Of a stretch of 64,000 nt of DNA, positions 9,001 through 14,040 are shown piece after piece. Source of the DNA: Catenuloplanes niger (GTDB lineage: Bacteria > Actinomycetota > Actinomycetes > Mycobacteriales > Micromonosporaceae). The notes under the pieces are model-generated. The model was not told the origin of the DNA. It saw nothing but the letters and a program-made list of their open reading frames with translations, and did not search any database. The stretch is taken from positions 8,232,501 through 8,296,500 of the forward strand of contig NZ_JAVDYC010000001.1 in the NCBI RefSeq assembly GCF_031458255.1, given 5' to 3'. The position numbers and the translations under genes were made by a program. Each line of letters starts with the position of its first letter. Within the stretch, counting starts at the first letter, position 1.

Positions 9001-12000
9001 CCCGCCGCCGGAGAGACCCTGGACCCCGACGCCGTCCGTGGCTGGCTCGGCACCGTCGTGCCGGACGCACTGGTCCCGTCCACCATCCGCGTCCTGGACG
9101 CGCTGCCGCTCACCCCGAGCGGCAAGCTCGACCGCCGCGCGCTCCCGACCACCCCACCGGCCCGCTCCGCCTCACCGGCCCGCTCCACCCCACAGGCCCG
9201 CTCCGCGCCACCGGAACCGATCACGGCGCCGGTGCCGGACCACGGCGCCGAAGCCGAAGCTGACCGTTCGATCAGTCAGGGGGTCGCCGCGGCCGCACCG
9301 GGGGCGCCGGCCGATCCGGTGGACGTGATGAGCCGGGTCTTCGCGGAGGTGCTGGACCGGGCCGACGTGCTCCCGGACACCGGCTTCTTCGCGGCCGGCG
9401 GGGACAGCATCCTCGCGATCCAGCTGGTGAACCGGGCGCGCGCGGCCGGGCTGCGGGTCCAGGTCAAGGACGTGTTCGCGCACCAGACCCCGGCCACGCT
9501 GGCCGCGGCGGCCGAACCGCTGGCGCCGGCCGGGCCCGCGACCGGAACGCCGGCCCCGAGCACGGCCGGCGCCGAGGGGCCGGTGGAGCTGACACCGATC
9601 ATGCACCGGCTCCGGGAACGCGGCGGACTCGACACCGCCGTGCAGACCGCGACCGCGACGCTGCCACCCGGAACGGACCTGCCCGCGCTGACCGCCGCGG
9701 TGCAGACGCTGCTCGACCGGCACCCGATGCTCCGGGCCCGCCTGACCGTCAGCGCGCACGGCCACTGGTCACTGCTGATCCCGCCGAAGGACGATTCGCC
9801 GCCCGCGAGCCGTCTGGTGCGATCCGCCCCCGGGACCGCGGGTGCGCCGGCCACCACGCCCACGCATCCGTGCGACCCGCCGACGGACCCCGGTGATCAG
9901 CCGGTGGACCCGGGCGGCCGGCCGGCGGAGCGGCGGGACGCCGTCGTCCGGGCGGTGGCCGTGGAGTCGGCGGCGACGCTCGACCCGGGCGCGGGCCGGA
10001 ACTCGAGCTGGTGCCTGGTCCCGGCCACGGACGGCGGCTCGCCGCTCGTCGTCGCGGTCGTCCACCACCTGGCGATCGACACGATCTCCTGGGGCATCCT
10101 CTGGGCGGACCTGCGCGCCGTGCTGACCGGGACGCCGCTGCCGGCCGCCGGGCCGCTGCCGTTCCGTGCCTGGTCCGCGCGTCTTCGTGACCTCGCGTCC
10201 AGCCCCGAGGTGCTCGGCCAGTACGGCTACTGGCTGGACGCGTCGGCGGCCGGCGCCCCGATCCTGCCACCGGCCGGGGAGGCCGGGAACGCCGGCCGCG
10301 CCACGCTGTCGGTCGAGGCGGACGTGTTCGCACCGCTGTGGGACTGGGCCGTCGACCGGTACGGCTTCACCGGCGAGGACCTGGTGCTGGCCGCGGTGGT
10401 GCAGGCCACGACCGGGCGGGCGGCGGACGGCGCGGACCGCGGCGTGACCGTCGCGATCGAGCGGCACGGGCGGGACGACGAGGCCACGTTCGGCACGGTC
10501 GGCTGGTTCACGAGCCTGTACCCGGTACGGTTCGCGGGCGCGGCGGACCCGGTGGCGACGCTCAAGGCGGTCAAGGAGACGCTGCGCGCGGTGCCGGGCG
10601 GTGGCCTCGGCTACGGCCTGCTGCGCCACCTCAACCCGCAGACCGCGCCGGCACTCGCGGCGATGCCCGAGCCCGAGCTGCTGGTCAACTACCTCGGTAA
10701 CCTGCCGGACGGGCTCGACCCGGACCTGCTCGGCGACGCCGAACCGCACGGCCGGGGCGCGGAACTGGTCGCCTGGACCGTCGGCGGCCGCGCGCTGCAC
10801 GCGGTGCTGCTCGGCGACGCGGCACATGACCTGGACCGGTTCCGGGACGCGCTCGGCGCGGCCGTCCGGGCGCTGAGCCGGGCGACGGCGGGCGCGCCGG
10901 GTGGGCGTACCCCGTCCGATCTGCTGCTCGGCGGGCTGACCCAGGCCGATGTGGACCGTCTCGACGCGGACCACCCGGGCTGGCTGGACGTCGTGCCGGC
11001 CGGGCCGCTGCAGGAGGGCCTGCTCGCGCTGGCGCACACCGCGAGCACGCGGCTGGACGTCTACACGGTCCAGCTGCGGCTCCGGTTCCGCACGGTGCCG
11101 GACGCGGACCGGATGCGGGCCGCGATCGAGGCACTGTTCGCGCGGCACGTGGGACTGCGGCTGGGGCTGCGGCCGGCCGAGTCGGGCCGGGTGGTGGCGG
11201 TGCTGCGTCCACCGGCCCCGGTCCCGCTGCACGAGCATCGCGATCGCGGGGTGGACGCGCTGGCCGGCGAGCGGCGCCGGGAACGGTTCGACCTCGCCGA
11301 GCCGCCGCTGTTCCGGTTCGACCTGGTGGCCGCCGCGGACGGCACCGGCACGCTGATCATCACCGGCCATCACGCGGCCTGGGACGGCTGGTCCGCCCCG
11401 CTGCTGGTCAACGACCTGCTGGCGCTCTACAGCGGCCGGCCCCCGGCCCCGGACGGCTCCGCGGCGCACCTCGCCTACCTGCGCGACCTCGCGGGCCGCG
11501 ACGCGTCGGCCGACCGGGCGGCCTGGCACACGCTGCTGGACGGACTCGACGGCCCCACGCTGCTGGTGCCGGACGTGACCGCGACCGGCGACACGCTCCC
11601 CGCCGAGGTGCGCACGACCCTGCCGGACGACCTCGGCGACGCGCTGCGGCGCCGGGCCGGTGCGCGCGGCCTCACGCTCAACACGCTGCTGCAGGGCGCG
11701 TGGGGCCTGCTGCTGGCGCGGCGCACCGGCCGTACCGACACCACGTTCGGCATCACGGTGTCCGGCCGGCCGCCGGAGATCGACGGGCTGGACCGGGCGA
11801 TCGGGCTGTTCGTCAACACGGTCCCGGCGCGGTGCGAGACGCGGGCCGGCGACACGTTCGGCGACGTGCTCGCCCGGTTGCAGCGGCGACAGGCCGCGAC
11901 CGCGGCGCACCACCGGCTCGGACTCGCCGCGATCCAGCGGGCCGCCGGGCTCGGGACGCTCTTCGACACGCTGCTGGTGTTCGAGAACTACCCGCTGGAC

Positions 12001-14040
12001 GAGGCCGCGCTGCTCGGCCCGGCCGGCGGCGGCGACGCGGGCCTGGTCGCGATCGAGGCGGACGACGCCACCCACTACCCGGTGACGCTGACCGTCTTCC
12101 CGGGCGACGAGATCGGGCTGGCGCTCGGCTACCGCCCGGACCTGTTCGGCGCGGACACCGCGCACGGCTTCCTCGCCGAGCTGCGGGAGCTGCTGGAACT
12201 GTTCGCCGCCGGCCTGTCGGAGCCGGTCACCCGCGCCGGCCTGCACCCGGCGCCCACCGCCCTCGCGACCGACCCCCACGGCGACGCCGGCCGCGGCGTC
12301 CGGACGACCGCCGAGCCGTCCCCGAAGGCCGCGCCGGACGCGGCCGCTCACGCCGCGGCCGGCGCGAACGGCCAGGCCGCGACCGGCGCGAACGGCCAGG
12401 CCGTGGGCGGCGTCGACGGTCAGGGTGCGGCCGGTGCGAGCGGCCGGGCGGGGGACGGCGCGACCGGTCAGGCCGCGGGCGGTGGGAGCGGCCAGGCCGG
12501 GGAAGCCGGCGCGGCCGGCCGGCCCGTCGGTGACCCGGGGGCCGACGCCGAGCGGCTGGCGGAGATCTTCGCCGACATCCTGGAGATTCCGCACGCCGCG
12601 CCGGACGACAGCTTCCTCGCGCTCGGTGGCGACAGCATCCTCGCCATCCAGCTCGTCGCCCGCGCGCGGGCCGCCGGGCTGCACTTCACCGCCGCCGACG
12701 TCTTCACCCACCGGACCGCCGCCGCGCTCGTGACGAACGCCGCCGCGCCGAGAAGCGCGCCCCGCGCCCCGGCCAAGGACGCGTTCACCACGCCGCACCT
12801 GACCCCGATCATGCACTGGCTGCGCGAGCTCGGCGGGCCCGTCGGCACCTACAGCCAGCGCGTGCTGCTGCGCCTGCCGGCCGGCATCACGGAGCGGCGC
12901 CTCACCCTGGTGATCCAGCGGGTGCTGGACCGGCACCCGATGCTGCGCGCCCGCTTCGACGCCGACTGGCGGATCACCGCGGCGCCGCCGGGCGCGGTCC
13001 GGGCCGAGGACGTCCTCACCGTCGCCACCGGCGACCCCGGGCAGGCGACCGCCACGGCCGCCGCGCTCCTCGACCCGCACACCGGTGCCGTCTCCCGCTG
13101 GGTGCTGCTGCGGGACAGCGACACCCTGCTCGTCGTCGCGCACCACCTGGTCGTCGACGGCGTCAGCTGGCGGGTCCTGATGGCCGATCTGGCCGGCGCG
13201 GCCGCGGACGTCCCGCTGCCCGCCCCGGCGGCCGGCTTCGACGACTGGGCGGCGCTGCTCGCGGCCGACGCCGGGAGCGCCGGGCGCGCCACCGAGCTGC
13301 ACCACTGGCAGCGCGCGCTCGACGCGCCCCCGCCGTTCCCCGGACTGCGGCTCGACGCGGTCAGGGACACCGCCGCCACCCGGCGTGAGCTGACGCTGAG
13401 TCTCGACCCCGGCGAGACCGAGGCGGTGCTCGCGCACGGCGCCGAGGATCTGCTGCTGGCCGCGCTGGTCACCGCGCTCGGCGAGCGCCCGGTCTCGGTG
13501 CTGCTGGAGGGCCACGGCCGCAACGACGACGTGATCGACGCGGACGTCAGCCGCACGGTCGGCTGGTTCACCAGCATGTACCCGGTCCGCCTGGACGCGG
13601 GTGACCCGGCGCGGGTCGCGGCCGCCCGCAAGGCCGTCCCGGACCACGGCCTGGGCTACGGCGAGCTCCGCCACCTGCGGCGCACGCTGCACGCGCCGGA
13701 GCCGCAGGTCCGCTTCAACTACCTGGGACGGTTCACCACCGCCGGTACGCACCGGGACTTCGCGCCGGTGGACGAGACCGAACCGATCGGCGGGTACGTC
13801 GACCCGGCGCTGCCGATCCCGTACCCGCTGGACGTCACGGCCGCGGTGGTCGGCGCCACGCTGCACCTGCGGCTGGCCTGGCCGGGCCGCCATCTCGACG
13901 AGCCGCGCATGCGCGTGCTCGCCGACGACTACCTGCACGCCCTGCGACACCTGTCCGGCCGGCGCACGCCGGACCCGGACGACGCCGTCCTCGTCGACAT
14001 CGGCGCGGACGAGCTCGACGACCTGTGGAGGAACGCATGA
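3010..14040 (+). CDS. NRPS1: three modules, C-A-T / C-A-T-E / C-T-E
   Basis: A 3676-residue synthetase, start GTG 3010. Domains: C1 ~10-430 (HHLVLDG at 140-146), A1 ~438-1010 (YTSGSTG at 620), T1 Ser1059, C2 ~1115-1535 (HHLAGD at 1238), A2 ~1565-2040 (YTSGSTG at 1703), T2 Ser2133, E1 ~2190-2640 ([10 protein letters not shown] at 2352), C3 ~2658-3075 (HHAAWDG at 2787), T3 Ser3209, E2 ~3264-3670 ([10 protein letters not shown] at 3378). Module 3 has no A domain; a Gly/Ala repeat linker (~3078-3177) joins C3 to T3. By-eye pocket codes: A1 DADDVGAVDK (polar residue, unresolved); A2 DVWHFSLVDK, close to the serine code, so with E1 D-Ser is expected. C3 has the LQEGLL start seen in C domains that accept D-residues. 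The N-terminal C1 implies an acyl or aminoacyl starter delivered in trans. The last bases overlap NRPS2 (ATGA). Confidence 0.93.
4681..4800 (+). repeat. In-frame Pro/Ala-rich repeat between core motifs of A1
   Basis: Repeated copies of a CTTCCCGCCGCG-like 12-15 bp unit encode Leu-Pro-Ala-Ala steps in A1 of NRPS1, just before the YTSGSTG loop. The copies are imperfect. The segment lies in a surface loop of the N-terminal subdomain and probably does not affect catalysis. Confidence 0.6.
12361..12504 (+). repeat. Six tandem 24-bp repeats in the linker of the A-less module
   Basis: Six consecutive in-frame 24-bp units (starts 12361, 12385, 12409, 12433, 12457, 12481) each encode a variant of Gly-Ala-Asn-Gly-Gln-Ala-x-x. 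The first two units are almost identical and the later ones have diverged. They lie between C3 and T3 of NRPS1, where an A domain of about 500 residues is expected, and make a flexible tether. Confidence 0.9.

Follow-up and report, generated by a model that had tools for sequence, protein, structure and literature searches.

The closest described counterparts of module 3 of NRPS1, a nonribosomal peptide synthetase (NRPS) encoded in a 64,000-nucleotide stretch of the Catenuloplanes niger genome (hereafter the window; G000:C1:8232501-8296500, part of a one-contig genome of 9.74 Mb), are CmnI and VioI, which like module 3 contain condensation (C) and carrier (T) domains without an adenylation (A) domain, have a flexible stretch beside the carrier, and are accompanied by an MbtH gene in the cluster. 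In the accessible part of the source, intact-mass data demonstrate the loading of A-less CmnI by CmnA-A1, and VioA-A2 is the proposed counterpart for VioI; after removal of the flexible extension of CmnI-T, no binding of CmnA-A1 was detectable, the truncated protein also having precipitated (PMC12400406). The same portion of text presents CmnI as a separate protein with T and C domains, with no mention of an epimerization (E) domain, whereas module 3 is an embedded C-T-E module that ends a three-module chain. CmnI is served by the A domain of another module, and VioI is proposed to be; in module 3, such loading is likewise proposed.

Yersiniabactin is a siderophore whose module types differ from those of NRPS1. 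As far as the available text describes it, its A domain charges three carriers, one in cis and two in trans (PMC7539972), so that HMWP2 resembles the reading favoured below in that a single A domain fills several carriers; the HMWP2 domain activates cysteine, unlike the serine-type A2 of NRPS1. SyrE/SyrB1, rotihibin RthA/RthB and WS9326A also have, like NRPS1, an A-less module in an otherwise normal line, and according to the accessible portions of the sources those clusters encode a distinct A or A-T partner (PMC8949500, which reviews SyrE and other trans A cases; PMC8552735, in which a thioesterase-type shuttle is proposed for rotihibin; PMC7539972), whereas the window has no such gene.

An A-less module shared by four Catenuloplanes genomes

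The open reading frame of NRPS1 (3010-14040) encodes 3676 amino acids (aa), in which Pfam profiles detect five PF00668, two PF00501 and three PF00550 stretches, and motif positions give the domain order C-A-T-C-A-T-E-C-T-E. Between C3 (core motif HHAAWDGWS at residue 2787) and T3 (carrier serine Ser3209), the latter followed by E2 (ten-letter core motif at residue 3378), neither motifs nor Pfam reveal an A domain, which bears out the absence claimed in an earlier note on this DNA. The features of NRPS1 are as follows:

3010..14040, + strand: NRPS1, 3676 aa, C-A-T-C-A-T-E-C-T-E (Pfam, motifs)
7732..9135, + strand: A2, predicted serine-type (signature DVWHFSLVD), proposed loader of T2 and T3
9289..9519, + strand: T2, carrier of module 2 (motifs)
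9571..10929, + strand: E1, epimerization domain of module 2 (motifs, C/E tree)
10972..12264, + strand: C3, condensation domain of module 3 (Pfam; clusters with C domains preceded by an E domain)
12265..12513, + strand: variable linker at the expected A-domain site (four-species comparison)
12326..12503, + strand: degenerate 24-bp tandem repeats (Tandem Repeats Finder, TRF)
12517..12747, + strand: T3, carrier without its own A domain, Ser3209 codon at 12634-12636 (motifs)
12793..14004, + strand: E2, epimerization domain (motifs, C/E tree)

Among the 80 loci kept from a profile scan of genome contigs, the sole true ortholog belongs to Catenuloplanes japonicus NRRL B-16061 (L012), whose NRPS1 is collinear with that of the window and likewise A-less. 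When 41 whole genomes were searched for E2 (cut-off E <= 1e-60), matches were obtained in four, all of them Catenuloplanes (four of the five genomes of the genus, its own included, and none of the 36 others); G001 had no E2 match in this search. The A-less module 3 is common to all four cluster-bearing genomes (G000, that of the window, G002, G003 and G004), C. japonicus among them, and each cluster contains eight AMP-binding matches. Nine carriers were recognised by motif in three of the four clusters and eight in G002, where the ninth, which is the final carrier of NRPS3, is seen in the alignment (77 codons, 79%). As for the core residues of T3 and E2, described earlier as intact, these motifs and that of C3 are kept in four of four species, with one Val-to-Ile change in the E2 motif of G004, and the combination that marks a CmnI-type module, intact C and T cores with the A domain absent, is thus found in all four.

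Embedded A-less C-T-E segments were also found in four other loci of the profile scan (L023, L036, L048 and L055, from Streptomyces and Kitasatospora), which share the layout of module 3, their best segments being 37-39% identical to the query region. Taking into account these loci and the precedents above, the arrangement is of a known non-collinear kind, of which module 3 of NRPS1 is a further case. No C-A-T-E ancestor of the module was found among the 80 loci kept (the best segment from outside the genus is 43% identical), and an A domain may have been lost or may never have been present.

The ratio of nonsynonymous to synonymous substitution rates (dN/dS), calculated with a Nei-Gojobori script between the window and its three relatives, is 0.22-0.32 for C3, 0.20-0.47 for T3 and 0.34-0.40 for E2. 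For A1 and A2 it is 0.18-0.46, which is also the range of the other NRPS1 domains, the maximum of T3 being marginally higher, and for the domains of NRPS2 and NRPS3 it is 0.07-0.41. C3, T3 and E2 are under purifying selection, and module 3 is conserved and A-less and is probably functional.

Candidate loaders of T3

If T3 is used, another A domain must load it, because module 3 has none. The earlier note left this task either to another A domain of the assembly line or to an enzyme encoded elsewhere; the former is favoured here, though not proven. T3 is likely to be charged by some A domain outside module 3. A six-frame PF00501 search of the window found no AMP-binding domain beyond NRPS1, NRPS2 and NRPS3, in agreement with the earlier statement that no standalone A-T protein is present here, and no PF00975 thioesterase was found in the cluster region of any of the four genomes (other hydrolase families were not searched). 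The line's own A domains therefore remain, and a rotihibin-like shuttle has no candidate of that family. Since neither the separate A or A-T protein nor the PF00975-type shuttle of SyrE/RthA-type systems was found, the comparison with SyrE, put forward earlier, turns out to be a poor fit.

By analogy with the service of CmnI by CmnA-A1, A2 of the same protein is tentatively proposed to load both T2 and T3, an assignment that we rate as close to, but short of, an even chance. The signature of A2, its positions placed by GrsA numbering, is DVWHFSLVD in all four species. Serine signatures given in the accessible part of one source are DVWHLSLVDK and DVWHMSLVDK, with variation at positions 299 and 330 (PMC12283262), and the solved structural relatives of A2 include the A domains of EntF and FscH; by its signature, A2 is of the serine type.

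In this proposal, module 3 would be a functional elongation module of a siderophore line, ancestrally A-less; A2 would activate Ser and load its own T2 and also T3 of the same NRPS1 chain. C3 would join the D-configured intermediate of module 2 to the T3-bound residue, E2 would epimerize this residue, and NRPS2 would then take over, leading to an adjacent D-Ser-D-Ser. The flexible linker between C3 and T3 would parallel the CmnI-T extension, and it is suggestive in the light of the truncation result described above.

Several comparisons are compatible with this scheme. T2 and T3 are sisters in a tree of the line's own carriers (35 rows, one of 36 having been missed by the pattern; support 94/87), and the same relationship links E1 to E2 within the set of E domains of this line (96/86). 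The tree of C and E domains (44 rows, no outside references; the second NRPS1 C domain was left out, its motif being missed by the pattern) places N2C1, the acceptor of the chain from T3-E2, in a clade with C3 and N3C1, which follow an E domain, and with N3C2, which does not. This clade, defined in a tree without outside references, may be read as the D-to-L type, and the place of N2C1 beside C domains that act after an E domain fits T3 passing on a D residue. The dN/dS of A2 ranks second, second and first lowest among the eight A domains in the three comparisons.

Other results weigh against the proposal. The dN/dS of N2A1 nearly equals or undercuts that of A2, being lower in two comparisons, and because of this the low value of A2 is compatible with double duty but no proof of it. 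Among the nine carriers, the maximum dN/dS is that of T3 against G004 (0.46) and G002 (0.39), and T3 is mid-rank against G003; these values, which come from about 77 codons per carrier and are hence noisy, speak against a strong constraint on T3. The join of T2 and T3 bears a long-branch warning, and T3 is no closer to T2 (46.8% identical) than to N3T1 (48.1%). With 97 outside E domains added, E1 and E2 cease to be strict sisters, and their clade (0.95) also holds domains from L022 and L040. No result presented here demonstrates A2 reaching T3, and we infer both that T3 is loaded and that A2 is the agent.

A recent T2-E1 duplication yielding T3-E2, with E1 and E2 as its products, was also considered, and was rejected as unsupported because E domains from outside the line intervene between the two.

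Instead of A2, another A domain of the line, such as N2A1 or the second serine-type domain N2A3 of NRPS2, might load T3 across the protein boundary, which seems unlikely. T3-E2 forms the C-terminal end of NRPS1 and adjoins NRPS2, the constraint on N2A1 is similar to that on A2, and cross-protein loading is the demonstrated mode in capreomycin, according to the available text (PMC12400406); however, a downstream A domain would be required to serve an upstream carrier, and a signal specific for this was not found. It appears similarly doubtful that module 3 is skipped, or that T3 merely relays the peptide, to give an eight-residue product. Skipping of modules is known in other assembly lines, and it would agree with the missing A domain and with the position of T3 as the carrier under the weakest constraint in two of the three comparisons. 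Nevertheless, all four species retain the catalytic motifs of C3, T3 and E2, and the loss of constraint to be expected in unused domains is not seen, their dN/dS staying well under 1 while that of the linker drifts (0.6-1.25).

Rather improbable is the loading of T3 in trans by an A or A-T protein encoded elsewhere in the genome, as in SyrE/SyrB1, rotihibin and WS9326A. The genome does have other NRPS-type A domains, and trans A domains are documented in the portions consulted of PMC8949500, PMC8552735 and PMC7539972. Outside the cluster, G000 has 30 PF00501 matches, counted as 28 A domains, and 21 of these were compared with the hits fetched from relatives (18 of 41 in G004, 20 of 52 in G003, 19 of 44 in G002 and 1 of 30 in G001, the first three totals each including the cluster's own eight). 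Only L115, which is DHB-AMP-ligase-like and lies in a 2,3-dihydroxybenzoate (DHB) operon, and L120, with acyl-ligase-like motifs, matched at >=60% identity in all three other cluster-bearing genomes; the other seven were typed by motif alone, three as acyl-CoA ligase-like and four without result. The nearest stand-alone candidate also argues against such loading:

73101-74366 in window numbering (L010:10101-11366), - strand: stand-alone AMP-binding protein, 421 aa, about 9 kb past the window

Its P-loop is degenerate (YASGRDGFPRG), and it shows no readable amino-acid-type signature and no PF13193 match. It has relatives in G001 (87%), G002 and G004, and none of at least 60% identity among the G003 loci fetched. 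Its acyl-ligase look and its 87% relative in G001, which is free of the cluster, led to its rejection as the T3 loader.

The linker between C3 and T3

From the end of C3 to T3, the linker measures 116 residues, in line with the length of about 100 given before, and it has 48 residues in G003, 141 in G004 and 130 in G002, in all four species far below the approximately 500 residues of an A domain. Its sequence drifts, with identities of 0.22-0.48 in four comparisons, which also gave the dN/dS range mentioned above. The repeat array at 12326-12503 has a period of 24/48 and a TRF score of 175, the top of 35 rows for the window. Six tandem 24-bp repeats had been described in it; the array is real and the count differs, as TRF gives 7.2 degenerate copies at 73% matches.

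In the NRPS1 genes of the four species, TRF detects a 24-bp array in this linker only in the window. At the same place G002 and G003 have no array and G004 has three short 15-bp ones, and the arrays of the relatives are scattered in NRPS1, mostly outside the module-3 linker, the strongest of G002 (score 401) lying between A2 and T2. A period of 24 nt is the best autocorrelation lag in the linkers of G003 and G004 (0.48 in both), the values being 0.55 in the window and 0.35 in G002, and the array of the window may have been preceded by a weak 24-nt pattern. Because the TRF arrays of the relatives are mostly in other parts of NRPS1, the view of the repeat linker as a stand-in for the A domain loses its support; the repeats are incidental to the A-less state and not its cause. 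That they could be the scar of a lost A domain was rejected on the same ground.

A misassembly that dropped the A domain at the repeats, which the location of these in the linker might have suggested, can be dismissed with near certainty, since the four assemblies agree in lacking the domain and have linkers of unequal length and repeat content, one with 48 residues and no TRF array.

A fold model of the C3-linker-T3 region, based on two sequences, is of little information (mean predicted local distance difference test score, pLDDT, of 41), with the linker as coil at about 25-28, T3 at 69-81, and most of C3 also poor. As a separate observation, NRPS1 of L012/G002 contains large, species-specific, repeat-rich inserts between and inside domains, for instance between A2 and T2 and inside C3.

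The cluster and its predicted product

The remaining features of the cluster, together with an unlinked operon, are the following:

2181..2720, + strand: aspartate 1-decarboxylase (PanD), probable beta-alanine supply; C. japonicus ortholog 83%, upstream of NRPS1
2750..2965, + strand: MbtH-like protein; match beside the cluster in all four genomes
14025..27809, + strand: NRPS2, C-A-T-C-A-T-C-A-T-C-A-T-E (motifs)
27806..34126, + strand: NRPS3, C-A-T-C-A-T, no PF00975 thioesterase (motifs)
34123..36096, + strand: multicopper oxidase, following NRPS3 with an overlap; identity 90-96% in three relatives
46495..47268, - strand: siderophore-interacting protein (SIP)
47359..51225, + strand: siderophore-type uptake genes (two FecCD permeases, ATPase, binding protein)
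51096..54703, + strand: two ABC exporter half-transporters
G000:C1:6684726-6688847 (L186:7726-11847): unlinked operon of a short-chain dehydrogenase/reductase (SDR), a chorismate-binding enzyme, an AMP ligase and an isochorismatase

Conserved uptake and reduction genes stand beside the NRPS genes, SIP, the first FecCD permease, the ATPase and the binding protein being matched in three relatives (the second FecCD and the second exporter were outside the table), and the cluster looks like a siderophore system. NRPS3 has no PF00975 thioesterase to account for product release. Lys/Orn N-hydroxylase has no match in the cluster; each genome has one strong match elsewhere. Between the NRPS and the uptake genes there is a DDE_Tnp_ISAZ013 transposase match (37323-38450), which is present in the corresponding region of G003 and not in those of G004 and G002.

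The genes of the unlinked operon presumably correspond to EntA, EntC, EntE and EntB, and we take them to form a DHB pathway. Its SDR, chorismate-binding enzyme and AMP ligase have 84-98% matches in G002, G003 and G004, where an isochorismatase match adjoins the counterparts, so that a DHB-type operon occurs with the NRPS cluster in all four genomes that have the latter. Taking into account this co-occurrence of two unlinked loci, and that the best match of the ligase in G001 is only 33%, the starter for C1 is probably 2,3-DHB. A motif scan of L186:7000-13500 found no aryl carrier protein (the rest of the genome was not searched).

The signatures of N2A2 (IDTTVSLGD, or IDTTISLGD in G002) and N3A1 (VDTTISLGD) both lack the usual Asp235, and, because PanD is encoded beside NRPS1 and in view of known signatures, we read these two domains as specific for beta-alanine. 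PanD together with N2A2 and N3A1 suggests two beta-alanine units made on demand; a literature search gave nothing usable on a beta-alanine signature or on a link between panD and siderophores. The line has nine carriers and eight A domains in total, and the order predicted from the sequence would start with DHB - A1 (DADDVGAVD) - D-Ser - D-residue 3 (Ser if A2 loads it) and would continue with DTWTIASVD - beta-Ala - Ser - D-(DVAVLVCVN) - beta-Ala - DAQEGGLVD, signatures standing for residues where given.

No title among the literature matches listed names the cluster, subscription papers being mostly outside the search; PMC13238742, in its accessible part, cites a title on catenulobactins from Catenuloplanes. 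The findings point to a siderophore pathway with DHB and beta-alanine that is divided between two Catenuloplanes loci and is undescribed among those matches. It is conceivable, with somewhat less than an even chance, that two carriers of one multimodular chain, separated by about 1100 residues, are both filled by a single A domain of that chain, acting in cis or between the partners of a dimer and helped by the hypervariable flexible linker, and that this has been kept as the standard condition of a Catenuloplanes siderophore line with its DHB starter supplied from a locus 1.5 Mb away. The four species offer a natural test case of how one A domain might serve two carriers of one chain, with a bearing on NRPS engineering and on product prediction in a line where carriers outnumber A domains.

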